Source: Oscillospiraceae bacterium (GTDB lineage Bacteria; Bacillota; Clostridia; Oscillospirales; Oscillospiraceae). Taken from it: DNA of 40,806 nt. Shown in pieces: positions 20,719-36,549 of the stretch. Each line of letters starts with the position of its first letter. The first letter of the stretch is position 1. The DNA lies in the NCBI GenBank assembly GCA_017416685.1, contig JAFQBN010000036.1, positions 1-40,806 on the forward strand, in the 5' to 3' direction. The translations under genes and the position numbers were made by a program. The notes beneath the pieces are model-generated. The model was not told the DNA's origin. It ran no database searches and was given only the letters and a program-made list of their open reading frames with translations.

Positions 20719-20780
20719 TGGGCTACCTCCTGTTGTTTTTTGTAATACGTTACTCGCTGCATTTATTATAACACAGGCAC

Positions 20781-20821
20781 AAGGAAAATGGCAGAGGCAA
20801 TTTGCCTCTGCCATTTTCCTT
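20781..20821 (-). terminator. Terminator of spoIVB
   Basis: A 20-bp perfect stem (20781-20800 with 20802-20821) beginning at the spoIVB stop codon. It could also act on plus-strand transcripts. Confidence 0.75.
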
Positions 20822-22084: not shown

Positions 22085-22930
22085 TTAACCTTTGACCGCG
22101 CCGGCGGCCACCCCTTTAATGATGTGCTTCTGACACAACAAATAGAACACCACCACCGGCAGGATAGACAGCAGGATCAGCGCCATGGTGGCACCCAGAT
22201 CCACCGCACCGTAGCTGCCCTGCAGGTACTGGATGTGGATGGGGATGGTCATATAGTCGTTGCGGTCCAGCACAAGGTACGGAAGCAGGTAGTCGTTCCA
22301 GATCCACATGATCTCCAGAATACCCACAGAGATCATGGTGGGCCGCAGCAGCGGCATCACCACGTGGAAGTAGGTGCGGATAGGTCCGCAGCCGTCGATA
22401 GCTGCGGCCTGTTCCAGCTCCCGGGGAATGCTTTTCACAAAGCCGCTGAACAAAAACACCGCAAGGCCCGCGCCAAAGCCGAGGTAGACCACCGGAATGG
22501 TCCACGGGGTGTTCAGCCCCAGCCGGTCCGCTGTTTTGGAAAGGGTGAACATGACCATCTGGAACGGCACCACCATGGAGAACACAAAGAGATAGTAAAG
22601 CGCCCTGCACAGGCGGTTGTTCACCCGGGTCATATACCACGCCGCCATTGAGGTAAACAGCAAAATGAGTCCCACCGACAGCAGAGTGATGGTCAGGCTG
22701 TACAGCACCGATTTAATAAAAGGATAATTGCCGAAGGTCATGCCTTTTGCAAAGTTCTCAACCCCGGCAAAGCTTTCTGCATCAGGCAGTGAAAAGGTCT
22801 CCGTCTTTACATAGCTGTTATACTTGAATGCATTGATGACCACCACCGCAATGGGCAAAACGTACACTGCGGCGATGATGGAAAATAAGCCGGTCAGCAG
22901 GGCGCGGCTGCGGCGCGTGGAACGGCTCAT
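22085..22930 (-). CDS. Carbohydrate ABC transporter permease (MalG-type)
   Basis: A 281-residue inner-membrane permease of the CUT1 family with six hydrophobic segments. The cytoplasmic EAA loop, which docks the ATPase, reads ELEQAAAIDGCGPIRTYFH near residues 178-196. The C-terminus ends in QKHIIKGVAAGAVKG, standard for MalG-type subunits. Its ATG overlaps the stop of the upstream permease by 4 nt (ATGA), showing translational coupling. The transported substrate cannot be named from sequence. Confidence 0.93.
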   Translation of the reverse strand: MSRSTRRSRALLTGLFSIIAAVYVLPIAVVVINAFKYNSYVKTETFSLPDAESFAGVENFAKGMTFGNYPFIKSVLYSLTITLLSVGLILLFTSMAAWYMTRVNNRLCRALYYLFVFSMVVPFQMVMFTLSKTADRLGLNTPWTIPVVYLGFGAGLAVFLFSGFVKSIPRELEQAAAIDGCGPIRTYFHVVMPLLRPTMISVGILEIMWIWNDYLLPYLVLDRNDYMTIPIHIQYLQGSYGAVDLGATMALILLSILPVVVFYLLCQKHIIKGVAAGAVKG

Positions 22931-23838
22931 TGGTCCACCTCCCCTCTGCGGGTGGCCCGCAGCTGCAGCAGGGAGATGACCGCAACCAGCAGGAAAAAGA
23001 TGACCGCCTTGGCCTGCCCCACGCCCCGGGCAGCACTGCCCTGATCGTAAAAGGTGTTGTAGATGTTCAGGGCCAGCATCTCGGTGGAGCGGATGGTGCG
23101 CAGTGTGCCGTCTGCTCCCGTTTCAAACAGGATGGGGGCGCCGCCGGTCAGAGCCAAATTCTGGTCAAACAGCTTGAAGCTGTTTGTCAGGGTCAAAAAC
23201 AGGCAGATGGTAATAGCGGGCATCAGGTTCGGGATGGTCACCCGCAGCAGGGTCTGCCAGCGGCCGGCTCCGTCCATCCGTGCCGCTTCCAGCATGGACT
23301 CCGGCACGCTCTGCAGTCCCGCAATATAGATGATCATCATATAGCCGATCTGCTGCCAGCACTGCAGAATCACAAGTCCCCAGAAGCCAAACCGCCCGTC
23401 CAGCAGAATAGAGGTGTGGTAAGCCCGCAGGATCCCGTCAAACAGTACCGACCAGATATAACCCAGCACGATGCCGCCGATGAGATTTGGCATAAAAAAC
23501 ACCGTGCGGAACAGGCCCGTACCCCGGATGCCCTGTGTCAGCACGTAGGCCACCGCAAAGGCGATCAGGTTCACCGCCACCAGCGCTACCACCGCAAACA
23601 GGGCCGTCAGGCGGAAGGAGTGGATAAAGGTCGGGTCGTTGATGGCGGCGCTGTAGTTGCCTTTGCCGATAAAGGTTGCATCGCTGGTGGTCGTAAAGCT
23701 GCAAAAAGACAGATATATCCCCTGCAGGAACGGCCACAAAAATCCGATCGCAAAGGCCGCTGCCGTAGGCAGCAGAAAGACGGGCCAGTACCGACCCACC
23801 GCCGCAAGGCCACCCCGCCCGCGCCGTTTTTTCGTCAT
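22927..23838 (-). CDS. Carbohydrate ABC transporter permease (MalF/UgpA-type)
   Basis: A 303-residue CUT1 permease with six membrane segments after a short basic N-terminus (MTKKRRGRGG). The EAA loop is SMLEAARMDGAGRWQTLLRV near residues 196-215. It pairs with the MalG-type subunit. I chose the ATG at 23838 with GAGG 9 nt upstream; an ATG three codons earlier (23847) sits too close to its site but cannot be excluded. It follows the binding-protein gene by 79 bp. No ATPase gene is in the window, so a shared MsmX-like ATPase is probably used. Confidence 0.9.
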   Translation of the reverse strand: MTKKRRGRGGLAAVGRYWPVFLLPTAAAFAIGFLWPFLQGIYLSFCSFTTTSDATFIGKGNYSAAINDPTFIHSFRLTALFAVVALVAVNLIAFAVAYVLTQGIRGTGLFRTVFFMPNLIGGIVLGYIWSVLFDGILRAYHTSILLDGRFGFWGLVILQCWQQIGYMMIIYIAGLQSVPESMLEAARMDGAGRWQTLLRVTIPNLMPAITICLFLTLTNSFKLFDQNLALTGGAPILFETGADGTLRTIRSTEMLALNIYNTFYDQGSAARGVGQAKAVIFFLLVAVISLLQLRATRRGEVDQ

Positions 23839-23917
23839 TTGGAGCATCCCTCTCCCCCCATGTATCTTGAATGAAGGCGGGGCGGGCCAGTCCGCCCGCC
23901 CCGCGGCCAACACGGCC

Positions 23918-25183
23918 TTACTTGCCCTGGCTGTTCCAGCCGTCCACAAACGCCGTCTCTACCGCCGACCAATCGCCGCCGCTGCTGTATCGGGTCAGCG
24001 CCGAATTCAAAGCAGCGCGCCAGCGGGTGACGTTGGGCGTGTAGGTGAATACCCAGTCCACCGTTTCATTTCCGTTTTGCAGGTAGGTCTGCGCATCGCG
24101 CAAAAATACGTTGTCAACTTCCGGTGCATCCTCAAAGGGTATCTGCCCAAACTGATCGGCCAGTACCTTTGTCCCCTCCGGGGACGTGACCATCCAGTAC
24201 ATAAAGTCCAGCGTCGCCTGAATGTCCTCCACGGATGCCTGCGCATTCACCGCCCAGCAGTTCTCCGTGCCGCAGCACAGACCGATATTTTCCTCTCCCT
24301 CGGCCCCGGTGTAGATGGGGATCATGGCCAGCTGCTTGGGGTCCATGCCGTAGTCATTGACCAGGGCGCTGTACTCCCAGGAGCCGTTTTGGTAGAACAC
24401 CGCCTCCCCCCTGCCAAACTCCGCCTGGGCATCGTGACCGGGAGTGGCCAGGGTACGGGGATTGGCGGAGGTGTTGTTGATATACAGATCCCAGATATTG
24501 CGGTACTGGTCCAGATACTTACCGGAGATCTCACCGGGGTCACCCTTCCAACCGCCCATATCACGGGACTCGAAATACAAAGGCATATTGGCAAGGTGGC
24601 CGGTAAAGCGCCAGGCGGAACTGTCGTCCAAACCCGAGGAGGTAAAGGCATCAAAGCCCAGCTCCTCCGAGCGGGCATGGATGTCCTCGGCAACGGTCTT
24701 CAGGCTGGCAAAATCCTTGATATCCAGCACGCTGTACCCCGCCTGCTCCAACAGGCTCTTGTTGACGATCAGTCCAAAGCACTCGTAGCAGTAGCCGATG
24801 GCACAGGCCCTGCCTTCGCCGTCATACAGCGTGAAATCATCCGTGGACAGCTTGTCGTAAACCGGACTGTCTTTCAAGTCGTAGCAATAACCGCCCCACC
24901 GTTCCAGCGCGGCATTATTGCCCACCACGAACAGGGTAGGCGGGTTGCTCTTGTCCATCTCGGCGGTCAGGGTGGACTCGTACTGACCTGCAGCGGCGGT
25001 AACGATGCGCACCTCCACCCCGGTCTGCTCCCGGTAGGTTTTGGCGATCTGCTGCAGCGCCTGATCCGCCTCCGGTTTGAAGTTCAGCCAATAAACACTG
25101 CCCTTTTCATCTTCCCCGCAGCCGGACAACAATCCGACCGCAAGAACACACGCCATCAGAAGGGTCAACACTCGTTTTTTCAT
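23918..25183 (-). CDS. Extracellular carbohydrate-binding lipoprotein of ABC importer
   Basis: A 421-residue solute-binding protein with a lipoprotein signal (lipobox LLSGC, Cys22). The mature protein follows the family 1 bacterial solute-binding pattern: YREQTGVEVRIVTAAAGQYE, LIVNKSLLEQAGY and VFYQNGSWEYSAL. It contains several cysteines (CAIGYCYECFG, GLCCGTENCW) beyond the lipid-anchor residue, unusual for an exported binding protein. It delivers its ligand to the two permeases downstream. It lies 60 bp behind pnuC and probably shares its promoter and attenuator. Confidence 0.92.
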   Translation of the reverse strand: MKKRVLTLLMACVLAVGLLSGCGEDEKGSVYWLNFKPEADQALQQIAKTYREQTGVEVRIVTAAAGQYESTLTAEMDKSNPPTLFVVGNNAALERWGGYCYDLKDSPVYDKLSTDDFTLYDGEGRACAIGYCYECFGLIVNKSLLEQAGYSVLDIKDFASLKTVAEDIHARSEELGFDAFTSSGLDDSSAWRFTGHLANMPLYFESRDMGGWKGDPGEISGKYLDQYRNIWDLYINNTSANPRTLATPGHDAQAEFGRGEAVFYQNGSWEYSALVNDYGMDPKQLAMIPIYTGAEGEENIGLCCGTENCWAVNAQASVEDIQATLDFMYWMVTSPEGTKVLADQFGQIPFEDAPEVDNVFLRDAQTYLQNGNETVDWVFTYTPNVTRWRAALNSALTRYSSGGDWSAVETAFVDGWNSQGK

Positions 25184-25243: not shown

Positions 25244-25936
25244 CTATCCCCTGCTCTGCAGGCGTTTCATTTTGCGCCAGTTTACAAAACCATACCCATC
25301 ATTGACAAAAAAAATCAAAAAACAAGCCACCATGGGCAGCTGGGTCAGATCCTGCCGGCTGGCCAGCGCCCAAAGACCGATGAGTACCAAATCATTGCCC
25401 GCATAGGCCAGGGCGTAAAGAGGGCTGCGCACCACAGTCAGACCCACGGCAAAAAAGCTGGTGGCTACGGACAGGGTGCTCAGTGCCAGATTGGGCGTAT
25501 CAAAGGCCCTCAGGATGTAGTAAAACCCCCATGTCACCAGCCCCGTCAATACCACCAGCACCAGTGCGCTGCGGCGGGACACACTGCTGACCGTCACCTG
25601 ACTCTCACCCGGCCGGTAAGGGTGGCGCAGCCATGCTGCCAGGCTGATGACCGCCATAGGTGCGGTCATACCCACATAGGTGATCAGTTCACCATAGTAT
25701 CGCTGTCTGAGCGAAATATATCCGTACAGCAGCGAAAAAATGATGACCAGTACTTGGCCAAGAGGTTCTCCTCTGGCGAGAAAAATCAAGGCAGTAGCAC
25801 CTAACAAGGAGGCAACCAGCACCAGCACATCTCCGCTGCCGCACAACCAAAAAGAGCCTGCGATCAGCGCCATACCCACCAGCCACAGGCTGCGCTCAAA
25901 GACTGTCAGGCCGGCAAAAGCTTGTTTGATATTCAT
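25244..25936 (-). CDS. pnuC: PnuC-family vitamin/nucleoside transporter
   Basis: A 230-residue protein with about seven membrane helices and the PnuC-type C-terminus (FFVNDGYGFVNWRKMKRLQ). Family members move nicotinamide riboside, thiamine or riboflavin by facilitated diffusion, followed by intracellular trapping; motifs here do not fix which. The ATG at 25936 follows AGAGGTGCAAA. It is the first gene after a strong promoter and a leader with a terminator, and it is followed closely by the ABC importer genes. No salvage kinase is adjacent. Confidence 0.85.
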   Translation of the reverse strand: MNIKQAFAGLTVFERSLWLVGMALIAGSFWLCGSGDVLVLVASLLGATALIFLARGEPLGQVLVIIFSLLYGYISLRQRYYGELITYVGMTAPMAVISLAAWLRHPYRPGESQVTVSSVSRRSALVLVVLTGLVTWGFYYILRAFDTPNLALSTLSVATSFFAVGLTVVRSPLYALAYAGNDLVLIGLWALASRQDLTQLPMVACFLIFFVNDGYGFVNWRKMKRLQSRG

Positions 25937-25951
25937 TTTGCACCTCTTCAC

Positions 25952-26008
25952 AAAAAATAAACATCCCGTATGCACATCTTCCAGGACCTAATGATGTGCA
26001 ACAGGATG
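25952..26008 (-). promoter_or_regulatory. Attenuator in the pnuC leader (possible riboswitch)
   Basis: On the minus-strand RNA, CATCC (complement of 26004-26008) and TGCACATC pair with GATGTGCA and GGATG to form a two-part hairpin followed at once by TTTATTTTTTG. The 5' arm can instead pair upstream (GATGTAACAG with CTGTTGCACATC), giving an exclusive antiterminator. A further hairpin, CGCTGCC/GGTAGCG with an ACCG loop, lies 5' of it. It matches no riboswitch class I can name. Confidence 0.55.
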
Positions 26009-26110: not shown

Positions 26111-26119
26111 CTATTCCTG

Positions 26120-26439
26120 TTATTCGGGCCTCTCCACCACGGGATAAGCGCTGAAGGGTTTATCGTCAATATCCATATAGGTCAGATACTACTGGCAGGT
26201 GCTGGTATTCAGTCGGAAGCGGTTTTCCGAGATAGGTTGCAGATACTCCCCAGGCTTTGCGGGGTCCTTCTTCACAGGCACACCGTCCCGGCCGGCGGCC
26301 AGCATTCAGTACCCCTCCCGATAGTTCTGCTCCGCCACCTAAAGCTCGCGAGGCACACCAACAGGAGAACGATACACTTCAGTGCCGGCAAGGTTGACTT
26401 TGTCGGGAATGGCTTGGTTGCGGCCGGGTTGTGCTGCAT
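26120..26439 (-). pseudogene. Remnant of a second GH127/DUF1680 gene
   Basis: This 320-bp stretch aligns piecewise with the intact GH127-like gene at 28541-30241. The start (MQ...NQAIPDKVNL equivalent), a middle piece (TEVYRSPVGVPR region) and the last 70-75 codons remain, joined across two deletions of roughly 0.5 and 0.85 kb. It also has a one-base frameshift near the start and at least two nonsense changes (GAG to TAG). The first deletion joins copies of CAACCTSGCC present at both sites in the intact gene. It lies directly behind a GH20C-like gene, as the intact copy does. Confidence 0.88.
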
Positions 26440-26468
26440 AACATATTTTCCTTGTTGTTTGCAATGGT

Positions 26469-28142
26469 TTACTCCGGTCTGTCCGTTACGCAGGCGGACA
26501 CGATGTCGCTGTAATAACGGCTGTTGCGGTCCCAGTAGTTCAGGTATTTCTTCACACCGTAAGCGGGGCTGGAGGGAGTGCGGGGGTCCAGCTGTTCCAT
26601 CTCCAGCTCGTCGATGGTGGCAAGCGCGCCGCTGACATACTCCTCCAGGCGGTCGGCGCAGGTATCCAGACGGGTCATCACGCCGCCAATGCGGGCGTCG
26701 GACACCTCAAACCCGATGGGCTTGCTCTCCATCATCCACTGACGTCTGAAGGACTTGTGGAACTTCCTGACCAGGTCGCGGATGTGGCGCAGCTCCCCGG
26801 CCAGTTCAGCCAGCTTCGCCTTGTCCCCGGCCTTGTAAGCGGCGCGGATGAGGATACCGATGTCGCACTTTTCGGCGGTGACAGCGCACAGGTCGCGCAT
26901 CGTCTCAAACAGATAGCCCCAACGGGGATGGTCGCACCAGGGGGTCAGCAGCTTGACCAGTTCCTCGTGGTCGGCGCGGGCATAGTCGGGGATGGTGGGA
27001 TCCATCAGGCCGATAAAGGGATCGTTGTACAGAATATAGCGGGTGGGGTGTACGCAGTACTCTTCGCTCTCACTGCGCTGGGTCAGATCCAGCAGCAGGA
27101 AAGCGTCGTAAGGGATTTCGAACAGTTCCTCGAAATTCTTCTTGATCTCGTCCTCGTCGGTAATGCCCTTGGCGATCTGGCTGGCGTAGAACAAGCCGGC
27201 CATAGACGCAAAGTGGGCGCACTCGCCGCCGTCGTCGCCGAAGGTGCAGATCTTCACGTTCTCCACCTGTTCCTCCACGCAGGCCTGCATGGAGTTGCGC
27301 AGAGCACGGGTGCTGTAATAGTTTTCGGGATTGAATGCGTGCCAGGTCCACACGCCGCCCAAATACCACAGGTTGTCCGCCTTGATCTGCTTGTGGATGC
27401 GGATGAGGGCCTTATAGTCTTCTTTATCGCGCTTATAATAATCCCAGTACATCAGCGCCGCGTTTTGTGGCATCAGGCCGGAAACATCCTCCTGCACCAC
27501 AGCCGTGGTATCGCTGTAGCTGCTGCTGTGGGTGGCAAGACGGAAGGGCATATCGCCGGAGACCAGCATGGTCTGATAACCGTACTTGTCGGTGATGGCG
27601 CACACCCGGGCCATGTGGCGCTTGAGCACCTCCAGCCGGGGGGTGTAGCCGTTGAGCTTCAGGTACTTGCCCCGACCCAACAGCTCCGCTTCGTCCATCG
27701 CCACGCCGATAACGCGGCTGTCAAAGCACTCGGCGCAGGTGGAAATCATGGCCTCAATCAGCTCGTAGGTGCGCTCATCCTCGCACAAAAGGATGTCGGC
27801 ACAGTCGTTGATCTCGGAATAGTGCTTCCAGCGGAAGATTGTGGCCAAATGGGCTAGAGTATTGATCTGCGGCACGACCTCCACGCCGTGGGCCTTGGCA
27901 TAGGCGTTGATCTCCTTCAGCTCCGCCTTGGTATAACGGCCCCGGGCATAACCAAAATAGGGATGGCCCTCCAGCTCGTACGTATCCTCGGTATAGATGG
28001 TCATGGTATTGTAGCCCATGGCGGAAATCAGGTCGATCCACCGCTTCAGGGCATCTACGGTCATAACGGAGTTGCGGGAGCAGTCCACGCCGGTGGCAAA
28101 GCGCTTGAAGGGAACGCCGTTTTTACTCCGATCACAATTCAT
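26469..28142 (-). CDS. GH20C-like hexosaminidase-family protein, copy C
   Basis: A 557-residue cytoplasmic protein of the glycoside hydrolase 20 type, most like the intracellular GH20C beta-hexosaminidases of Gram-positives. It begins at the barrel strand FKRFATGVDCSRNSVM; the N-terminal alpha/beta domain of GH20C (about 90 residues) is absent. Markers are YTEDTYELEGHPYFGYARGR, the catalytic Asp-Glu pair in VAMDEAELLGRGKY (Asp150-Glu151), MYWDYYKRD, and the C-terminal DARIGGVMTRLDTCADRLEE. It has no signal peptide. It is much closer to copy A than to copy B. It has its own promoter (28189-28217), and AAAGGAG precedes the ATG. Hydrolysis of beta-linked N-acetylhexosamine is the family activity; it is unproven here. 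Confidence 0.82.
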   Translation of the reverse strand: MNCDRSKNGVPFKRFATGVDCSRNSVMTVDALKRWIDLISAMGYNTMTIYTEDTYELEGHPYFGYARGRYTKAELKEINAYAKAHGVEVVPQINTLAHLATIFRWKHYSEINDCADILLCEDERTYELIEAMISTCAECFDSRVIGVAMDEAELLGRGKYLKLNGYTPRLEVLKRHMARVCAITDKYGYQTMLVSGDMPFRLATHSSSYSDTTAVVQEDVSGLMPQNAALMYWDYYKRDKEDYKALIRIHKQIKADNLWYLGGVWTWHAFNPENYYSTRALRNSMQACVEEQVENVKICTFGDDGGECAHFASMAGLFYASQIAKGITDEDEIKKNFEELFEIPYDAFLLLDLTQRSESEEYCVHPTRYILYNDPFIGLMDPTIPDYARADHEELVKLLTPWCDHPRWGYLFETMRDLCAVTAEKCDIGILIRAAYKAGDKAKLAELAGELRHIRDLVRKFHKSFRRQWMMESKPIGFEVSDARIGGVMTRLDTCADRLEEYVSGALATIDELEMEQLDPRTPSSPAYGVKKYLNYWDRNSRYYSDIVSACVTDRPE

Positions 28143-28188
28143 ATCAAGTTTCTCCTTTTACATATACTACGACAATAGTGGCACACAA

Positions 28189-28217
28189 AACATATCAAGA
28201 AGAAGGTTAAAAGTCAA
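28189..28217 (-). promoter_or_regulatory. Promoter of GH20C-like copy C
   Basis: Minus strand TTGACT (28212-28217), 17 bp, TATGTT (28189-28194), about 47 nt upstream of the start codon. Confidence 0.7.
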
Positions 28218-28269
28218 GAATTGGCAGGGCCAAAGCAGTCGCGCCCCTATATGTATATTTAATAGCTGC

Positions 28270-28478
28270 TATTATGTTTTTTAATGGCCGACATGGACAC
28301 CGTCTGTGAATCATGACCGCCAGCCGTGCCGATGGTTTGCCAGGCCCCTTGTACCCGCAGGGAATTATCGTTGGGGATGTTCCGCCTGCGGCGGGCGTCC
28401 TTTGTGGGGTAACACCCACACGGTCAGTATAGCAACACCCCCTGTGTAGTTTCATTTTCCTACACAGGGGGTGTTTTG
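28270..28478 (+). ncRNA. Structured intergenic segment, candidate small RNA
   Basis: The 398-bp gap between the GH127-like gene and copy C has no gene. It holds four consecutive hairpins: AGCC/GGTT near 28322-28337, CCCC/GGGG 28345-28376, GGATGTTCCGCC/GGCGGGCGTCC around 28375-28400, and GTGGG/CCCAC 28404-28419. GACCG (28315-28319) and CGGTC (28421-28425) can enclose them. A 16-bp hairpin with TTTTGTC tail (28434-28478) follows on the plus strand and TATTAT (28270-28275) precedes, suggesting a plus-strand RNA of about 200 nt. A TATACT just beyond the far end leaves the other strand possible. No known family was recognised. Confidence 0.4.
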
Positions 28479-28540
28479 TCTATTGTCCGTTTTTTATGGA
28501 CCCGTTCACCGTTAAGCCGGGGGGTGACTTTTTTGATCTG

Positions 28541-30241
28541 TTATTCGGGCCGCTCCACCACAGGGTAGGCGAAGAATGGCTCGTCATCAATGTCCATATA
28601 GACCAGATACTCCTGGCAGGTGCTGGTATTCAGTCGGAAGCGATTTTCCGTAATGGGTTCCAAATACTCCCAAGGCTTTTCGGGGTCCATCTTGACGGGT
28701 ATGCCGTCCCGGCCGGCAGCCACTAGCAGCAACGGCCCATACTCTACCGCCCAGCGCTCCTTGCCAATGATTTCCTCCACACCGTGGTACAGGGTGCTCT
28801 TCCAGCCGAAGGGCAGTTCAAACTCGATGACCGTACCGGCAGCAACGGCGGGAACGGTCAGATAAGTGCCGGGTTTTGCTGTAATGCCGCAAACCTTTAC
28901 ATCACTTGCACACCAACGAGGAATACGCAGTTTCAGGTCCATGGGGCGGGCCGCCTCAGCCAGTTCGATACGTACCTTGCCATTGTAGGGCATACCGGAC
29001 TGCACCTTAATAACCGCATCACCCAAGGTAGCCTCGCTGTCGGCATAGAGGTTAACATAAATCTCTTTTTCCGTGTAGCTGTACAATAGCTGAGGTACCA
29101 TACCCATCATGCGGGTACCGGTACCCACGCAACAAGTGGCGCGGTCCACCCAGCGATTGTCCTTGCAGCCCTCCAGATAGGCCAGATAGTGGATGCCTCT
29201 ATCCTCCACCTGACAGGCCGTGAGGACGTTGTAGAAAGACTGCTCGATCTCGTCAAAGTTGGCTGCGTTGTCGGGATCCAGCAGGTGCAGCCGCTGATGC
29301 AGCAGCATCCAGAAGGTGGTGCAGCACAGTTCATTGTAGATGTGCTTTTGGTCCAGGAAGTAGCAACCGGGCTGGCGCAGTTCCCCCTCGCACATGACGA
29401 TGCCGCCACCCACATGCTGCCACTTGTCCTTGTACATTTCAAGAGCGCAGTTGACGGCATTGAGCAGCTTCTCCTCGCCGGTGGCGCGGTAGGTGTCCAA
29501 CAGACCCTCCAGGGTGGTCAGCAGGGTGCCGTGGGGGTGGTTGCCCAGATGGGCGTGGATAGCCCGCTGGTCATGGGCCAGCAGCCAATCAATCCAGTAC
29601 TCCTCACGGTAGTGCTTCTCCGCCACCTCAAGGTCGCGGGGCACACCCACGGGTGAACGATACACCTCGGTGCTGGCGAGGTTGCCCTGGAAGCCCAGTT
29701 CCAGATCCTTCACATAGGGCAGGCAGTCGCACTGATTGAACCAGTCACCCATGCCCCGGACAAGGCCGTAGGCCTTCTCATTTCCGGCGGCACCGGCAGC
29801 CAGCAGGCCGAAGTTCATCCACGCACGGACATAGTTGGGATACTCCTTGTCATTGAACTTCTCCTTTTCAATGGCCATGAAGTAGCCGTCGTCCTCGGCG
29901 CAGGCCTCGATCTCGTCCACGATGGCATTCATCATTTCACGAAGCTTCTCGTCCTCCTGCCACATGAGGGTGGTGCCGACACCCATGAGGAACATACCGG
30001 CTGTCTGTCCGTGGAGTTCCCCCTCAAACACGTTCAGGCCCTGTCCGTAGGGTACACCCGGGGCGGGCTTGCCCGCCTTGACCCGGAACCAGTAGAGCAT
30101 GCGGTCCAAATCAAAGCGCTTCAAAAAGGAAATGTTGTTGTCGAACAGGGTTTTCAGCCGACCGCCGGTCAGCTTCACGCCACCGTAGGCCAGGTTGACC
30201 TTGTCGGGAATTGCTTGGTTGTTACAGGGTGTGTATTGCAT
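28541..30241 (-). CDS. GH127/DUF1680-family glycoside hydrolase
   Basis: A 566-residue cytoplasmic (alpha/alpha)6-barrel protein of the DUF1680 / beta-L-arabinofuranosidase (GH127) superfamily. The metal-thiolate site of the family is recognisable: Glu304 and Cys306 in YNELCC, and the paired cysteines Cys370-Cys371 in RATCCVGTGTRM, equivalent to the E-x-C and CC motifs of characterised enzymes. An N-terminal VFEGELHGQTAGMFLMG and a C-terminal beta domain (LKLRIPRWC, VEYGPLLLVA) fit. Typical members are 600-660 residues, so this is slightly short. AGGAGA precedes the ATG, 15 nt after copy B. Specificity could be arabinofuranoside or another pentose/deoxysugar. Confidence 0.82.
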   Translation of the reverse strand: MQYTPCNNQAIPDKVNLAYGGVKLTGGRLKTLFDNNISFLKRFDLDRMLYWFRVKAGKPAPGVPYGQGLNVFEGELHGQTAGMFLMGVGTTLMWQEDEKLREMMNAIVDEIEACAEDDGYFMAIEKEKFNDKEYPNYVRAWMNFGLLAAGAAGNEKAYGLVRGMGDWFNQCDCLPYVKDLELGFQGNLASTEVYRSPVGVPRDLEVAEKHYREEYWIDWLLAHDQRAIHAHLGNHPHGTLLTTLEGLLDTYRATGEEKLLNAVNCALEMYKDKWQHVGGGIVMCEGELRQPGCYFLDQKHIYNELCCTTFWMLLHQRLHLLDPDNAANFDEIEQSFYNVLTACQVEDRGIHYLAYLEGCKDNRWVDRATCCVGTGTRMMGMVPQLLYSYTEKEIYVNLYADSEATLGDAVIKVQSGMPYNGKVRIELAEAARPMDLKLRIPRWCASDVKVCGITAKPGTYLTVPAVAAGTVIEFELPFGWKSTLYHGVEEIIGKERWAVEYGPLLLVAAGRDGIPVKMDPEKPWEYLEPITENRFRLNTSTCQEYLVYMDIDDEPFFAYPVVERPE

Positions 30242-30256
30242 CTGTACGTTCTCCTA

Positions 30257-31939
30257 TCAATAACCCTTGCCCACCACATTGGCGGACACGATGTCAACGT
30301 AGTAACGGCTGTTGCGATCCCAGTAGTTCAGGTACTTCTTCACGCCGTAGCTGTCGCTGGCGGGAGTGCGCACATCCAGCAGTTTCTCCTCCAGCTCCTC
30401 CACCCGGTCAATACGCCCGGCCACGTAGTCCTCCAGGCGGTCGGCGCAGTAGTCCAGGCGGTTCATCACGCCGCCGATACGCACGTTGGACACGTCAAAG
30501 CCGTGGGGTTTGTTCTCCAGCAGCCACTGGCGACGGAAGGACTTGTAGAAGGTCTCCACCAGACCACGGATGCGGCGCAGTTCCTCGGCCAGTTTGCCCA
30601 GCTTAGCCTTGTCACCGGCCTCATAAGCGGCGCGGATGCGGTGTCCGATATCGCACTTTTCGGCGGTGACGGCGCACAGGTCGCGCATGGTTTCAAACAT
30701 ATAGCCCCAGCGGGGATGGTCACACCAGGGAGTCAGCAGTTTGACCAGCTCCTCGTGGTCGGCACGGGTGTAGTCGGGAATGGTGGTATCCATCAGGCCG
30801 ATGAAGGGGTCATTGTACAGGATGTAACGGGTTGGCTCGATGCAGTACTCCTCCGTCTCATTCCGGCCGGTCAGGTCCAGCAGCTTAAACTCGTCGAAGG
30901 GGATATCAAACATCTTCTCGAACTTCTCCTTAATGGAGTCCTCGTCGGTGTTGCCCCGGGCGATCTCCGCGGCGTAGAAGTAGGCCGGCAGGGCGGAGAA
31001 CCGGGCGCACTCGCCGCCGTCGTCACCAAAGGAGGACACCACCACATTCTCCAGTCCCACGTCAACGCAGGCCTGAATGGAGTTGCGCAGGCCCTGAATG
31101 GCGTAGTTATTCTCCGGCGAGAAGGTATGCCAGGTCCAAGTGCCGCCGTAGTACCACAGGTTGTCCGGTTTGATTTCCTGGTGGATCTTCATCAGGGCAG
31201 TGTAGTCCTCTTTGCTGCGCTTGTAGTAGTCCCAGTAGATCAGACCTACCTTTTCAGGAATCAAGTCGGACACATCCTCCTGCACCACGGCTTTGGTGTC
31301 GCTGTAGTTGTCGTTGCGGGTGGCCAGGCGGAAGGGCATATCGCCGGAAATCTGAATCATCTCAAAACCGTACTTATCGCACAGCTCGCACACCCGCTTC
31401 ATGTGGCGCTTGAGGATGTCGATACGCTCGTGGTCGCCGTGCTTTTCGTGGTACTTACCACGCCCCAGCAGCTCCGCCTCGTCCATGCTCAGGTTGATGA
31501 CCCGGGAGGTAAAGCACTCGGCACTGGTGGCGACCATGGCCTCGATGAGCTCATAGGTCCGCTCGTCCTCACACAGCAGGATATCCTCGCAGTCATTGAT
31601 CTCGGCGTAGTGTTTCCAGCGGAAGATGGTCTTCAGGTGGGCCAGGGTCTGAATGTCGGGAATCAGCTCCAGCCCTTTGGACAGGGCGTAGGCGTCCAGT
31701 TCCTTCAGCTCCGCCTTGGTCAGGCGGCCGCGGCCGTAGCCGAAGTAGGGATGGCCCTTGATTTCATAGGTATCCTTGGTGTAGAACATAAAGGCGTTGT
31801 AGCCCATTTCGGCGGCGATATCCATCAGCCGCTTCATGGCCGGCACGTTCATCACCGCATTGCGGGAGCAGTCCAGACGGAAGGCAAAGCGCTTGAAGGG
31901 GATGCCGTTGTTGTGTTCAAAGGGCAGTTTGTAGTTCAT
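30257..31939 (-). CDS. GH20C-like hexosaminidase-family protein, copy B
   Basis: A 560-residue paralogue of copies A and C with the same layout: barrel start FKRFAFRLDCSRNAVM, YTKDTYEIKGHPYFGYGRGR, catalytic pair in LSMDEAELLGRGKY (Asp153-Glu154), IYWDYYKRS, and C-terminal NVRIGGVMNRLDYCADRLED. It differs clearly from A and C along its whole length (for example KDTYEIKG, EKMFDIPFDEFKLLDL, LIPEKVGLIYWD), so it is an older duplicate, perhaps with a different linkage or sugar preference. It begins 13 nt after copy A and ends 15 nt before the GH127 gene, inside one transcript. AAGGAGAGG precedes the ATG. Confidence 0.82.
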   Translation of the reverse strand: MNYKLPFEHNNGIPFKRFAFRLDCSRNAVMNVPAMKRLMDIAAEMGYNAFMFYTKDTYEIKGHPYFGYGRGRLTKAELKELDAYALSKGLELIPDIQTLAHLKTIFRWKHYAEINDCEDILLCEDERTYELIEAMVATSAECFTSRVINLSMDEAELLGRGKYHEKHGDHERIDILKRHMKRVCELCDKYGFEMIQISGDMPFRLATRNDNYSDTKAVVQEDVSDLIPEKVGLIYWDYYKRSKEDYTALMKIHQEIKPDNLWYYGGTWTWHTFSPENNYAIQGLRNSIQACVDVGLENVVVSSFGDDGGECARFSALPAYFYAAEIARGNTDEDSIKEKFEKMFDIPFDEFKLLDLTGRNETEEYCIEPTRYILYNDPFIGLMDTTIPDYTRADHEELVKLLTPWCDHPRWGYMFETMRDLCAVTAEKCDIGHRIRAAYEAGDKAKLGKLAEELRRIRGLVETFYKSFRRQWLLENKPHGFDVSNVRIGGVMNRLDYCADRLEDYVAGRIDRVEELEEKLLDVRTPASDSYGVKKYLNYWDRNSRYYVDIVSANVVGKGY

Positions 31940-31952
31940 ATCAACCTCTCCT

Positions 31953-33620
31953 TTATTCCGGTCTGTCCGTCACGCAGGCAGACACAATATCGCTGTAATA
32001 GCGGCTGTTGCGATCCCAGTAGTTCATATACTTCTTCACACCAAAAGCAGGGCTGGAGGGAGTGCGGGGATCCAGCTGCTCCATCTCCAGTTCGTCGATG
32101 GTGGCAAGCTCGCCGCTGACATACTCCTCCAGGCGGTCGGCGCAGGTATCCAAACGGGTCATCACGCCGCCGATGCGGGCGTCGGACACCTCGAAGCCGA
32201 TGGGCTTGCTCTCGATCATCCACTGCTTGCGGAAGGACTTGTGGAACTTCTTCACCAGATCGCGGATGCGGCGCAGTTCACCGGCCAGCTCGGCCAGTTT
32301 CGCCTTATCACCGGCCTTGTAGGCGGCGCGGATGCGGATGCCGATGTCGCACTTTTCGGCGGTGACGGCGCACAGGTCGCGCATCGTCTCAAACAGATAG
32401 CCCCAACGGGGATGGTCACACCAGGGGGTCAACAGCTCCACCAGTTCCTCGTGGTCGGCACGAGCGTGGTCGGGAATGGTGGGGTCCATCAGACCGATGA
32501 AGGGGTCATTATACAGAATGTAGCGGGTGGGATGGACACAGTACTCCTCGCTCTCGTTGCGCTGGGTCAGATCCAGCAACAGGAAGGCGTCGTAGGGAAT
32601 ATCGTACTTCTCCTCGAAGTTCTTTTTAATCTGCTCTTCGTCGGTAATGCCCTTGGCAATCTGGCTGGCGTAGAACATACCGGGCAGTACGGCGAAGTGG
32701 GCGCACTCGCCGCCGTCGTCGCCGAAGGTGCAGATTTCCACGTTCTCCACCCCCTGCTCGATGCAGGCCTGGACGGAGTTGCGGATGGCACAGGTGCTGT
32801 AGTAGTTCTCGGGGTTGAAGCCGTGCCAGGACCACACCGCACCCAGATACCACAGGTTCTCCGCCTTGATTTGCTGGTGGATGTTCATCAGAGCCTTGTA
32901 GTCCTCTTTGTCCCGCTTGTAGTAGTCCCAGTACATCAGGGCGGCGTTGGCGGGCATCAGGTTGGACACATCGTCCTTGACGGCGTTGTTCACGTCGGTG
33001 TAGTTATCGTTGCCGGTGGCAAGGCGCACGGGCATATCGCCGGCAATGAGCATCATCTCGTAGCCGTACTTGTCCGTGATCTCGCACACCCGGGCCATAT
33101 GGCGCTTGAGCACATCCAGCCGCTCGTGATAGCCGTGGAGCTTCATATACTTGCCGCGGCCCAGCAGCTCCGCCTCATCCATAGCCACGCTGATAATGCG
33201 GCTGTCGAAGCACTCGGCACAGGTGGCAATCATGCTCTCGATAAATTCATAGGTACGCTCATCCTCACACAAAAGGATGTCGGCACAGTCGTTGATTTCG
33301 GAATAATGCTTCCAGCGGAAGATGGTAGCCATGTGCGCCAGGGTCTGAATGGCGGGAACGATCTCCACGCCGTGGGCCTTGGCGTATGCGTTGAGTTCCT
33401 TCAGTTCCGCCTTGGAGTAGCGGCCACGGGCATAGCCGAAGTAGGGATGACCCTCCACCTCATAGGTGTCCTCGGTGTACATCATCAGATGGTTGTACCC
33501 AAGGTCGGAAATAATATCGATCCATTCTTTCAGCGCGTCCACGGTCATAACCGAGTTGCGGGAGCAATCCACGGACGTAGCAAAGCGCTTGAAGGGAATT
33601 GGGTTGACAGGTTCGGGCAT
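31953..33620 (-). CDS. GH20C-like hexosaminidase-family protein, copy A
   Basis: A 555-residue GH20C-like protein lacking the usual N-terminal domain, without signal peptide. The catalytic Asp148-Glu149 pair lies in VAMDEAELLGRGKY; MYWDYYKRD and AVWSWHGFNPEN supply the barrel aromatic residues that line the sugar pocket. Where characterised GH20C enzymes have His after DEA (MDEAH), all three copies here have Glu (MDEAE). Copy A and copy C are nearly identical over long stretches, notably the last 250 residues. CTGGAGG lies 8 nt before the ATG, 27 nt after the activase stop, placing it in the glycyl radical enzyme operon. Confidence 0.82.
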   Translation of the reverse strand: MPEPVNPIPFKRFATSVDCSRNSVMTVDALKEWIDIISDLGYNHLMMYTEDTYEVEGHPYFGYARGRYSKAELKELNAYAKAHGVEIVPAIQTLAHMATIFRWKHYSEINDCADILLCEDERTYEFIESMIATCAECFDSRIISVAMDEAELLGRGKYMKLHGYHERLDVLKRHMARVCEITDKYGYEMMLIAGDMPVRLATGNDNYTDVNNAVKDDVSNLMPANAALMYWDYYKRDKEDYKALMNIHQQIKAENLWYLGAVWSWHGFNPENYYSTCAIRNSVQACIEQGVENVEICTFGDDGGECAHFAVLPGMFYASQIAKGITDEEQIKKNFEEKYDIPYDAFLLLDLTQRNESEEYCVHPTRYILYNDPFIGLMDPTIPDHARADHEELVELLTPWCDHPRWGYLFETMRDLCAVTAEKCDIGIRIRAAYKAGDKAKLAELAGELRRIRDLVKKFHKSFRKQWMIESKPIGFEVSDARIGGVMTRLDTCADRLEEYVSGELATIDELEMEQLDPRTPSSPAFGVKKYMNYWDRNSRYYSDIVSACVTDRPE

Positions 33621-33647
33621 AACGATAACCTCCAGTGCGTGTATAAC

Positions 33648-34487
33648 TTATGCTAAGATGGCCGGCACACCGGCACGGATAAAGGGATCCAGCAGACGTT
33701 CATCGGCCTTTTGACCGGTAAATTCCATGGGTTCCAGACCCAGCTGGGGGTACTTCGCCCCGGCCATGGGGTTGTAGGGCAGCAGTTCCGCCCGCTGCAG
33801 GCCGGGAATCCCCACCAGCAGTTTGGCAATGGCGGTCAGGTTTTCCTCCGTGTCCGTCACTCCGCCAATCAGGGGCGTGCGGATGATACAGGGGTGTCCG
33901 CTTTGGCGCAGATACTCCAGGTTTTGCAGAATGAGTGCATTGTCCTGCCCGGTATATTGCTTGTGCAGGCCGGGATCGGCCAGCTTCAGGTCCATCATCA
34001 CCAGTTCTGTCCGCGCGCACATAGCGGCGAACACATCGGTGGATGCAAAGCCGGAGGTCTCCACACAGCGGTGGACACCCTCCAACTTATCAAGCAAATC
34101 CAGCAGAAACTCCGGTTGGGACAAGGGTTCGCCGCCGGACAGGGTCACTCCCCCGCCGCTGATGTCCCAAAAGTCTTTCTCCCGCAGCAGCTTGGCGGCC
34201 AGCTCACCGCTGTCCACCTCACACCCCGACAAGGAAATCAAACCATTGGGACAGGCGTGAAGGCAGCGGTCAAAGCCTTTACACTCCGGATGGTCGCACC
34301 CCGCCCGGCACAGGCCGCAGCCGGTACAGCGGCTGTACTGCACCATCAGCTGAGGGTGGAACTCCAACCCCTCCGGGTTGTGGCACCACCGACAGCGCAG
34401 GGGACATCCCTTAAAAAACACCGTGGTGCGCGGGCCGGGGCCATCGTGGACCGCCAGCTCCTTAATGTCAAAAATCAGGCCCTTCAT
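33648..34487 (-). CDS. Glycyl-radical enzyme activating protein (radical SAM)
   Basis: A 279-residue activase that uses S-adenosylmethionine and an Fe-S cluster to form the glycyl radical on its partner. The radical SAM motif is FKGCPLRCRWCHNPEG (Cys28, Cys32, Cys35). A ferredoxin-like insert with extra cysteines follows (CTGCGLCRAGC at 54-64, then Cys69, Cys75, Cys79), predicted to hold one or two additional clusters, as in activases of dehydratase-type glycyl radical enzymes. TLSGGEPLSQ and DLKLADPGLHKQYTG are further family motifs. Its ATG is one base after the stop of the glycyl radical enzyme gene, so the two are translationally coupled. Confidence 0.93.
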   Translation of the reverse strand: MKGLIFDIKELAVHDGPGPRTTVFFKGCPLRCRWCHNPEGLEFHPQLMVQYSRCTGCGLCRAGCDHPECKGFDRCLHACPNGLISLSGCEVDSGELAAKLLREKDFWDISGGGVTLSGGEPLSQPEFLLDLLDKLEGVHRCVETSGFASTDVFAAMCARTELVMMDLKLADPGLHKQYTGQDNALILQNLEYLRQSGHPCIIRTPLIGGVTDTEENLTAIAKLLVGIPGLQRAELLPYNPMAGAKYPQLGLEPMEFTGQKADERLLDPFIRAGVPAILA

Positions 34488-34488
34488 A

Positions 34489-36549
34489 TTACAGGCCGTA
34501 GGCTCGGCGGGCGATGACGTGATCCTGATAGGCCTTATCTAGTTCCACAAAGTAGGCGCTCCAACCCCAGATACGCACCACCAGACGGCGGTACTGCTCC
34601 GGGTGCAGCTGGGCGTCGTGCAGCTGTTCGGCGCTGACGGCGTTGAGTTGGAACTGATGGCCGCCGCTGTGGATGAAGTAGCGCACCAGCTGTGCCACCT
34701 TGCTGCGGCTCTCCTCGCTGCGGAACAGCGTGGAGTCAAACTCCATGGTCAGGGGGCCGCCGTTGCAGGCCCGGGCCAGATTGGGCTTGGTAAAGGACCG
34801 CACAATGGACACGGGGCCCCCGGTCTTGGCGTACAGGCTGGGGGCATAGTTGGCGCCGAAGGGCTCACCGTGGCTGCGGCCGTCTGCGGTGCAGGGCGTC
34901 TCGGCCGCGTGCTGCAGGTAGAACATTGCAGAGCCGGTACCGCAGCGGAAGATACCGCCGCGCTCGTTTTTCCGGCCGGCCACCGCGTCGGCAAAGGCAT
35001 CCAGCAGGAACACCGCCTCGCCGTCCACGTAGTCGTCGTCGTTGCCCATCTTGGGCATCTCGGTACGCAGACGCTGACGCAGGGACTCGTAGCCTTCAAA
35101 GTTGGCATCGATGGCGGCAATCAGCTCGTCGGCGGTCAGGGACTTCTCTTCAAAGACCAGCTTATGAATGGCGGCCATGGTGTCCGCGGCGGTGGACACG
35201 CCGGTGCCGTGGATGCCGTAGTTGTTGTACTTACAGCCCAGAGTAACGTCCCGGGCGTTGTCGATGCAGCCGTCCATCATCATAGAAACGAAGGGGGACG
35301 GATAGATGTACAGACCCTTCACATTTTCCTCGATTTCGTCACAGCTGGTCACAATTTTCTTGACCACCTCGGCGCGGAACGCGTCGAAGTCGGCACACTT
35401 GGCCAAACTCTCGTGCATCGCCTCGTCAATGCACTTGGAGAAGGACACACCGGCAATGTTGTCGATATCCATGCCCTTGTGGGGGATGATAAACTCCCAG
35501 CAGGCAGCCACGGTGTAGTTGACCGCATCCTCGGGGGCATAACCCATCTCGATCAGGGCGGGAATGACGATATCATCGTTGGAGTACTGAGGGAAGCCAA
35601 GACCCTCCATGGTCAGGCGAGTACCCTCTTCATAGCGCTCGATGGGGGTGTCCTTATCCACGCGCAGGTTAATTTTGGGGTCGATGACCTTCAACTCTCG
35701 GCTGGCGGTCAGGCACAGGGAGGACAGCAGGTTAAAGGCATCCTTGCCATCCGCAGTACGGCCGCCCAGCATCATGCTCTGGCCGTCGTCCCCCTGCTGC
35801 ACGCCGGGGTACATATCGCTGTCCATGTTGAAAGACAGGAAGAACTCTTCCAGCAGTTCCAGCGCGGAGTCCTGGGTCAGCACGCCGGACTGCAAATCCT
35901 TCTGCAGATAGGGCCACATATACTGGTCGAACCGGCCCACACCCACGTGGTACATACCCTCCGCCCAGCAGGTGTAGTGCAGGATGCGGAAGAACTGCAG
36001 CGCTTCGGCAAAGGAGCGAGGGGGATTGTACGGCACGTTTGCAAGGCGGTCGGCAGCGGCGGTATTGCCGGCCCACTGGGCTGCGGCGCGGTAGCGCGCG
36101 CACAAATCGTACACGGCCTCAAGGCTCATGAGAAGGGCGGTGAGGTAGTCCTCCCCTTCCGTGTCCTGCTCGGCGCGGCAGCGATCCAGTCGCTGATTTG
36201 CGCGGTTTTTGACTTCATCCAGACCCAGCTCCATCACACTCTGATAAGAGGGGCAGATGTTGGACAGATTGCCCAGTTCGTGAATGAAGTGCTTCTGCTT
36301 CAGGTCGGCCTGCTCGGCATCGGTGAAGATGCCGGGCACATCGGTCACGGTGCGTATAAACAAAATCTCGCGACCGGTCAGCTCCGCGGGATGCTCGGCA
36401 GCCAGCAGCGCCTTCAGCCGATGGGCGCTGCGCAGCACGGGAGAAAGCCCTTTCTTCTGCCAATCCACCGCCCCGGCAAAGGGCGCGCGGTGTACATGGT
36501 GGGCATAGGCCAAACAGTTTTGCAACATAGTTTCAATTCGCTGTGTCAT
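34489..36549 (-). CDS. Glycyl radical enzyme of the PFL/dehydratase superfamily, unassigned function
   Basis: A 686-residue glycyl radical enzyme. The C-terminal glycyl loop reads LVVRIWGWSAYFVELDKA, with the radical at Gly662; most relatives have RVAGY or RVSGY. The thiyl cysteine is Cys350 in VAACWEFIIP, with Glu352 keeping the C-x-E spacing that supplies the base in eliminating enzymes. Pyruvate formate-lyase's CC pair is absent, so it is not PFL. It is about 70-160 residues shorter than PFL, glycerol dehydratase or choline lyase. AAGGAGGTCATAGT precedes the ATG. The activase and three glycosidase-family genes follow on the same strand. Substrate unknown; a carbohydrate-derived diol is suggested by context only. 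Confidence 0.9.
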   Translation of the reverse strand: MTQRIETMLQNCLAYAHHVHRAPFAGAVDWQKKGLSPVLRSAHRLKALLAAEHPAELTGREILFIRTVTDVPGIFTDAEQADLKQKHFIHELGNLSNICPSYQSVMELGLDEVKNRANQRLDRCRAEQDTEGEDYLTALLMSLEAVYDLCARYRAAAQWAGNTAAADRLANVPYNPPRSFAEALQFFRILHYTCWAEGMYHVGVGRFDQYMWPYLQKDLQSGVLTQDSALELLEEFFLSFNMDSDMYPGVQQGDDGQSMMLGGRTADGKDAFNLLSSLCLTASRELKVIDPKINLRVDKDTPIERYEEGTRLTMEGLGFPQYSNDDIVIPALIEMGYAPEDAVNYTVAACWEFIIPHKGMDIDNIAGVSFSKCIDEAMHESLAKCADFDAFRAEVVKKIVTSCDEIEENVKGLYIYPSPFVSMMMDGCIDNARDVTLGCKYNNYGIHGTGVSTAADTMAAIHKLVFEEKSLTADELIAAIDANFEGYESLRQRLRTEMPKMGNDDDYVDGEAVFLLDAFADAVAGRKNERGGIFRCGTGSAMFYLQHAAETPCTADGRSHGEPFGANYAPSLYAKTGGPVSIVRSFTKPNLARACNGGPLTMEFDSTLFRSEESRSKVAQLVRYFIHSGGHQFQLNAVSAEQLHDAQLHPEQYRRLVVRIWGWSAYFVELDKAYQDHVIARRAYGL

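Follow-up and report, generated by a model that had tools for sequence, protein, structure and literature searches.

The subject of this work is a glycyl radical enzyme (GRE) gene and the sugar-related genes that accompany it on contig JAFQBN010000036.1 (GenBank:GCA_017416685.1) of a gut bacterium of the Oscillospiraceae, a stretch of 40,806 nt that was analysed at full length and is referred to here as the window. Genes for the GRE, its activase, two GH20C-like proteins (A and B) and a GH127 protein follow one another on the minus strand, spaced by 1, 27, 13 and 15 nt, and 398 nt lie between the GH127 gene and a third GH20C-like gene (C). This gene order, the strand, the gaps, the third GH20C-like gene and a GH127 remnant behind it agree to the base with a preliminary description of this DNA. 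The recurrence of GREs of the same family in sugar loci of other anaerobes points to an undescribed way of sugar breakdown. The features of the locus are as follows; other loci, genomes and contigs carry our own numbers with the letters L, G and C, respectively.

34489..36549, minus strand: GRE, 686 aa (Pfam PFL-like domain, 329 bits, and Gly_radical domain, 59 bits)
33648..34487, minus strand: GRE-activating radical S-adenosylmethionine enzyme, 279 aa (Radical_SAM; TIGR02494, 255.9 bits, cut-off 174)
31953..33620, minus strand: GH20C-like A, 555 aa (Glyco_H_20C_C, PF18088, 176 bits)
30257..31939, minus strand: GH20C-like B, 560 aa (Glyco_H_20C_C, 174 bits)
28541..30241, minus strand: GH127/DUF1680-like protein, 566 aa (GH127 catalytic domain, PF07944, 91.8 bits, cut-off 24.9; middle domain also matched)
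26469..28142, minus strand: GH20C-like C, 557 aa (Glyco_H_20C_C, 170 bits)
about 26119..26439, minus strand: GH127 remnant in three pieces (182, 109 and 34 nt) with 81-91% identity to the intact GH127 gene, the intervening stretches being gone
26111-26082: terminator-like hairpin of 13 pairs, after the GH127 remnant
25244..25975, minus strand: PnuC-type transporter, between the GH127 remnant and the importer
23918..25183, minus strand: extracellular solute-binding protein of a sugar-type ATP-binding cassette (ABC) importer (SBP_bac_8), at the same position in L009 and L188
22927..23949, minus strand: ABC permease (BPD_transp_1), the nearest models being glycerol-3-phosphate/sugar CUT1 permeases
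22085..22930, minus strand: ABC permease (BPD_transp_1), GlcU/MalG-like

By its PFL-like and Gly_radical domains, its glycyl residue, its catalytic Cys and its cognate activase, the 686-aa protein belongs, judged from sequence, to the GRE superfamily. Its best score with the NCBIfam equivalog models of characterised GREs was 277 bits, where the cut-offs are 994-1150; the models for CutC, HypD, HpsG/HpfG, HPAD and IAD (cut-offs 1000-1150) were among them, and the broad subfamily model TIGR01774 gave 330.5 bits against a cut-off of 678. A profile built from 57 members of its clade scored members at 1004-1155 bits, a sister group at 770-922 and the other GREs tested at 406 or less, with 355 for PflD and 288 for YbiW of E. 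coli; two contig-end fragments scored 729 and 766 bits. In a FastTree tree of 62 sequences (support values not inspected), the clade and the sister group formed one branch, apart from the YbiW- and PflD-like enzymes. The GRE thus falls in none of the characterised GRE families tested, by equivalog models, profile or tree, and its earlier description as unassigned stands.

The window protein reads C350-W351 where pyruvate formate-lyase (PFL) carries an adjacent Cys-Cys, which we take to be the hallmark of that active site, and the PFL model TIGR01255 gave it 67.9 bits against a cut-off of 994. Its length, shorter than that of the characterised GREs compared, might suggest a degenerate or spare PFL with no reaction of its own; however, the clade as a whole retains the activase and the catalytic Cys, Glu and Gly, and a separate PFL-like protein is encoded on contig C1 of the same genome (694.5 bits), so that together with the low TIGR01255 score this reading is scarcely credible.

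Sequence motifs of the window GRE are C350-W351-E352-F353 and the glycyl loop R-I-W-G662-W-S (R-[VI]-W-G-W-S in the clade). Among 87 GRE open frames, a set that includes a few GREs from outside the clade, C350 and G662 were present in all 87 and E352 in 86. Clade members were nearly identical at 41 positions, chosen among those invariant in the 57-member alignment, the exceptions being L165 (several positions) and L167 (one), which argues for one reaction across the clade. All 57 members have Asn at positions 97 and 364, which align with His164 and Asp447 of glycerol dehydratase, whose numbering and catalytic roles we assume here. The other aligned GREs have His at the Asn97 position, except for a PFL-like protein (L001) with Arg; His is also found there in one member of the sister group, L155. 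The Cys-x-Glu of eliminases is kept in the clade motif C-W-E-F. Taken together, these residues suggest eliminase-type chemistry with a putatively altered leaving-group site. In the sister group (L119 and L154-L159), it was also noticed that CWE and WGWS are kept, that Lys188/Arg195 replace the clade Arg/Trp in L119 and L156-L159, and that a GH38 gene in L119 and CUT1-like permeases (named by cluster) in L154 lie near the GRE.

The search for relatives returned at least 564 matches at a threshold that any GRE would pass, of which the best 80 were kept. By record titles, these came from Clostridia, Bacteroidales, Lentisphaerae/Victivallales, Kiritimatiellae and Verrucomicrobia, with Robinsoniella peoriensis, Hungatella hathewayi, H. 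effluvii, Acetatifactor muris and Oligosphaera ethanolica among the named hosts. In a sample of the class, 17 of 391 genomes matched at E<=1e-200, a count that includes the genome of the window, sister-group members and the two contig-end fragments, and 11 of these scored at least 1000 bits. A sample of the family gave 3 matches in 150 genomes at E<=1e-80, one of which (G078, 35% identity, 289 bits) is another GRE by score. Such a patchy spread would be as expected for an accessory trait. A scan of viral contigs with a single-protein query, which finds close relatives only, gave no match, and to that extent a phage or viral origin was rejected; a plasmid search with the GH127 protein gave 36 records, all below 60% identity and none reaching 80% coverage.

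The genome of the window also contains two further GREs with activases on contig C24 (L171:6730-8922 and L172:6452-8467), for which the clade profile gave 240 and 156 bits. The former sits between pyrH- and tsf-like genes (named by eye) and, searched as L003, had no NCBIfam match at E<=1e-70. A second, different GRE was located near the clade or sister GRE in five other loci (L168:10792-12798, L157:9496-11475, L119:11627-13822, L081:4947-7358 and L086:7586-9886); the paired GREs come from several branches of the tree, and such pairing seems recurrent.

Clade GREs were found at E<=1e-200 in 3 of 61 sampled congeners, in all three beside a block of GH20C, GH127 and ABC importer genes, and they represent two clade lineages. 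Oscillospiraceae SIG489 (L009) has a GRE 94% identical to that of the window, and its gene order is GRE, activase, GH20C, GH127, GH20C, binding protein and two permeases, a PnuC gene being absent in between. The two SIG489 copies (L009 and L010) were counted as one locus in two assembled versions, since L010 stops at a contig edge and the upstream genes are shared. L009 has two GH20C genes, with no second one directly after A; the three of the window would therefore reflect recent duplication or loss, GH20C-like C and A being 84% identical in DNA. In congener G594 the corresponding site (pfkA, murC, cca) holds cca followed by GH20C (97% identity to A over 291 aa), GH127 (94% to that of L009), the binding protein and the permeases, with no PnuC gene, GRE or activase in the block. 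Genes for an AraC-like protein, a GRE and an activase (L188:8209-11844) lie 3.2 kb past these permeases, inserted between aldo-keto reductase and UDP-galactopyranose-mutase-like genes (named by eye) that are adjacent in the window; this GRE is 52% identical to the window GRE and 84% to that of a goat metagenome-assembled genome (L038).

Since the importer follows GH20C/GH127 without PnuC in both L009 and G594, the block is one that different species have conserved, as opposed to an accidental arrangement. The PnuC gene, not at that position in L009 or L188, is probably an unrelated insertion. We read the clade GRE as functionally coupled to the GH20C-GH127-ABC block; with one such case, positional coincidence is possible. 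The neighbourhood is thus not confined to one strain, as the block occurs in L009 and G594. The exact set of GRE, GH20C and GH127 was found in this genus only, which speaks in part against the preliminary proposal of GRE-glycosidase co-occurrence; the recurrence of the GRE clade beside glycosidases and sugar importers supports it, as follows.

Gene neighbourhoods were counted in 80 loci, comprising 79 of the best 80 (L010 excluded) and L008, with the same-genus L009 included. The only partner common across the 82 sources (80 genome-contig loci, L008 and the window) was the activase, its cluster being present in 68; in the window the TIGR02494 activase lies 1 nt downstream of the GRE. At least one hand-labelled sugar gene was present in the same-strand run of 36 of the 80 loci. 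Hand-labelled sugar genes made up 78 of 234 near proteins vs 11 of 234 distant ones (p 3.8e-16), a comparison that is partly circular, as the labels were made mostly from near-gene clusters, and in which operon genes are not independent. Pfam annotation of 226 of the 234 near proteins (a set without L009, L010, the window and any protein of at least 1200 aa) gave at least 13 Peripla_BP_4, 10 BPD_transp_2, 10 Sugar_tr, 7 arabinofuranosidase C-domain, 5 GH109, 4 GH127, 4 Raffinose_syn and 3 GH28 proteins, these counts being minima because 25 families were listed per set. None of these eight families was among the 25 listed for the distant control (116 of 143 proteins picked from 290 distant ones), in which an unlisted family has at most one member.

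The transporters differed with the host group. In Clostridia, ribose-type ABC importers, some with LacI-type regulators, accompany the GRE in L013, L028, L033, L040, L047, L051, L053 and L063, and the CUT2 binding protein of L028, taken as one representative, is of the ribose/allose class. In Bacteroidales and Lentisphaerae/Verrucomicrobia, a xylose-symporter-like transporter was found in L039, L050, L052, L058, L059, L065, L070, L075 and L084; the major facilitator superfamily transporter of L070, again one representative, is of the D-xylose/glucose symporter class. Several loci contain longer sets of sugar genes, the richest being the operons of L168 and L053: L168 has an operon of GH43, Zn-dehydrogenase, FGGY kinase, SGL lactonase, GRE, activase, GRE, activase and GH36-like genes, L166 has GH127-GRE-activase-GH36-like with gaps of 0, -1 and -1 nt (several gene names in L166 and L168 are by cluster to annotated representatives), and L053 has an ABC importer, LacI, activase, GRE, FGGY kinase and class II aldolase. 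In L013 and L056, too, the GRE has members of the dehydrogenase cluster (on the other strand) and of the lactonase cluster nearby. A 473-aa protein of L053 that looked FucI-like by eye had no PDB match, and its relative L051:8592-9983 had no Pfam match; this reading was dropped.

Both hydrolase families of the window had been put forward as partners of the GRE. GH127 is a recurrent one, although in a minority: a GH127-type gene lies within two genes of the GRE/activase in 7 other loci (L058, L062, L065 on the other strand, L071, L087, L088 and L166). GH20C, for which 39 of 391 class genomes gave a match at E<=1e-80, does not usually accompany the GRE and was rejected as a general partner, as detailed below. 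At the level of GRE clade and sugar locus, the finding is therefore wider than the preliminary description, and at that of the exact GH20C-GH127 set it is narrower.

Several of our results weigh against a general link of the GRE to sugars. No hand-labelled sugar gene was found in the run of 44 of the 80 loci (11 of the 80 are on contigs of less than 8 kb), and housekeeping genes are among the neighbours in some. CUT1-type permeases (BPD_transp_1) were not enriched near the GRE (5/226 vs 3/116), and the distant set holds two rhamnosidases and two GFO_IDH_MocA proteins. A clade GRE was present in 0 of 12 GH20C neighbourhoods elsewhere (about 8 kb on each side or to the contig end), the only GH20C gene in the gene run of a clade GRE outside the genus being that of L086 (A. 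muris). In G594 the GRE lies outside the operon. Finally, the partner hydrolases are diverse (GH127, GH20C, GH36-like, GH43, arabinofuranosidase, GH109, GH123, GH3 and GH4), and because they differ so widely no single sugar is implied.

The runs without sugar genes and the housekeeping neighbours would fit a GRE-activase pair that acts as a portable fermentation module on a common downstream metabolite, under local sugar control and with no glycan-specific pathway. So would the patchy spread (17/391 class genomes, 3/61 in the genus) and loci that hold little beyond a divergent AraC-like regulator, GRE and activase (L046, L060, L068 and L069) or the same with a GH127 gene between (L071 and L088). 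The AraC-like genes (by eye) are divergent from the GRE in the former four loci and from GH127-GRE in the latter two; together with the L188 insertion, these loci suggest that AraC-GRE-activase is a portable unit. However, the tight coupling to hydrolase genes, exemplified by the 0 and -1 nt gaps of L166, and the occurrence of two clade lineages at the same GH20C-GH127-ABC block speak against a module indifferent to glycans, which we consider unlikely.

The variety of hydrolases around one near-invariant GRE would also be expected if the GRE acted on an aglycone (a cyclitol, glycerol, another polyol or another non-sugar part) common to varied glycosides, with the hydrolases only stripping the sugars. 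Galactosyl-cyclitols are natural substrates of GH36-like/raffinose-synthase-like enzymes, and partners of this type recur in 5 of the 80 loci and also in L162, L166 and L168. A free sugar is a better fit to the aldose epimerase gene in L050 and L052, the arabinofuranosidases and the free-sugar importers, and an aglycone as substrate is likewise improbable in our estimate.

A carbohydrate is favoured as the substrate of the GRE because importer, cytoplasmic hydrolases and GRE occur together. That the GRE is an eliminase acting on an unphosphorylated sugar or other carbohydrate, or on a close derivative, is our preferred reading, for and against which we see about equal weight. Observed are the genes of the locus and how they are conserved, the existence of the GRE clade and its repeated occurrence at sugar loci; the substrate class, the order of steps and the chemistry that follow are conjecture on our part. 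The CUT1-type ABC importer, made up of the binding protein and two permeases (25183-22085, downstream of the PnuC gene), would bring in a small glycoconjugate, which the GH20C-like and GH127-like hydrolases would trim in the cytoplasm, and the GRE would then act on the freed carbohydrate. Import followed by cytoplasmic hydrolysis had been proposed before, and it fits the conserved importer, which had not then been connected with the locus. The N-terminus of the binding protein is lipoprotein-like (judged by eye), and inspection by eye revealed no signal peptide on the hydrolases of the locus.

In the GRE, the activase would generate a glycyl radical at G662, from which the radical would move to C350; the C350 thiyl may then abstract a hydrogen from a hydroxyl-bearing carbon while E352 takes the hydroxyl proton, and a bond on the adjacent carbon, most likely C-O, would break in an elimination. 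Because Asn97/Asn364 replace the His/Asp of diol dehydratases, the group expelled is probably something other than a simple hydroxyl that is protonated as usual; it may be the ring or glycosidic oxygen, or protonation may come from another residue. The resulting deoxy-keto or deoxy-lactone product would pass to ordinary reductases, lactonases or kinases, and a stage at the level of a lactone or aldonate would be in keeping with the lactonase and dehydrogenase genes found as partners. An aldo-keto reductase encoded in the window (19792-20814) was dropped as a pathway member, with 24% identity to the aldo-keto reductase of L013.

For the sugars released, NagA scored over its cut-off at 4 places and NagB at 1 in the same genome, which indicates N-acetylhexosamine handling. 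AraA_N had no match there, in a family matched in 5 of 14 control genomes, and an L-arabinose-like product of GH127 would therefore need another route, a hint only. A specific sugar (L-arabinose or one that is galacto-configured) would fit many of the hydrolases and the missing AraA_N; it is not claimed, in view of the GH4, GH3, GH123 and GH109 partners.

In its broadest form, the proposal is a radical route of carbohydrate breakdown in which a GRE clade of anaerobes from several phyla acts directly on an unphosphorylated sugar, a lactone/aldonate or a glycoside. The leaving group at the Asn/Asn site would be unusual, for instance a ring or glycosidic oxygen, and a regulator-GRE-activase cassette would join many glycan loci. 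We put this forward tentatively, holding it somewhat less probable than not. Were free sugars or glycosides the substrates, an oxygen-sensitive radical step would be added to glycan fermentation. The clade has sharp limits in sequence, some of its hosts are named species, and links with sugar import and with glycosidases were found again and again; its gene contexts yield short lists of candidate substrates. Many abundant gut GREs are described as without known function (PMC11574389), and in a search of papers under Creative Commons licences no title among the best-matching ones dealt with a GRE-glycosidase pathway.

A few further features of the locus concern its hydrolases and transporters. 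A GH20 catalytic domain match lies ahead of the C-terminal domain in A (37.6 bits) and C (38.0 bits), that of B (20.0 bits) being under the cut-off of 22.3. The listed start of the 22927..23949 permease gives a 32-nt overlap with the binding-protein gene, and the true start may lie further downstream. No microcompartment shell protein or aldehyde dehydrogenase was found in a scan of 10 locus proteins, which are the only part of the window that the search for shell proteins covered. The 28541..30241 protein is the sole GH127 match in its genome. GH20C-like genes number 8 in this 1.86-Mb genome; five more than those of the locus stand in tandem outside the window on contig C1 (L169:8284-17940, about 114-124 kb), behind a Liv-type ABC importer and with acetyltransferase-like and amidohydrolase-like genes (named by eye) on the other strand.

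Compared with known enzymes, GH20C-like A matched S. pneumoniae GH20C (PDB 5a69) with 337 bits over about 507 residues (10-516) with the Asp-Glu pair (MDEA) kept, whereas the S. pneumoniae exo-beta-N-acetylhexosaminidase has about 100 N-terminal residues that A lacks. By PF18088 (170-176 bits), and for A by the aligned MDEA pair, the three proteins are assigned to GH20C on domain evidence. The GH127 protein shares the Cys-Cys and Glu..Cys positions with GH127 of PDB 6ex6, the Zn/Cys-Glu residues being presumably the GH127 active site, and by these aligned residues and PF07944 over its cut-off it is a predicted GH127 member. It is remote from the known ones (beta-L-arabinofuranosidase 4qjy, 6ex6 and the aceric acid hydrolase family), with 59.5 bits to the best PDB chain and 58 bits to NF049879 against a cut-off of 950.

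For the GRE, the best PDB relative by profile is 1r8w (374 bits), and 9rco, titled "Glycyl radical protein", gave 324 bits to the clade profile. With the B12-independent glycerol/diol dehydratases (1r8w and 5i2a) the window GRE shares the aligned Cys433-x-Glu435 and the glycyl motif; these enzymes have His164/Asp447 where it has Asn97/Asn364, so that of the signature of glycerol/propanediol dehydratases the Cys-x-Glu is present and the His/Asp pair is not. It would be wrong to hold that known GRE gene sets never pair with sugar genes, YbiW and PflD having been overlooked in the preliminary description: E. coli pflD sits within a phosphotransferase system (PTS) gene set, and ybiW has a sugar phosphatase gene and fsaA as neighbours. 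In section 5.1 of PMC12441222, YbiW and PflD are reported to cleave 1,5-anhydroglucitol-6-phosphate and 1,5-anhydromannitol-6-phosphate. As sugar-linked GREs with Cys-x-Glu, their own activase and sugar-handling genes alongside, they resemble the window GRE, which by analogy could itself be an anhydro-sugar-phosphate lyase of this type. However, YbiW and PflD are distant from the clade, on separate branches of the tree and with profile scores of only 288 and 355 bits where clade members reach about 1000 or more; they are longer (810 and 765 aa) and have His at the Asn97 position; PflD moreover has Asp in place of Asn364 and is PTS-linked, whereas no PTS protein is among the 10 annotated proteins of the locus. 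The same reaction is thus highly improbable for the window GRE, and YbiW/PflD are the nearest precedent in kind.

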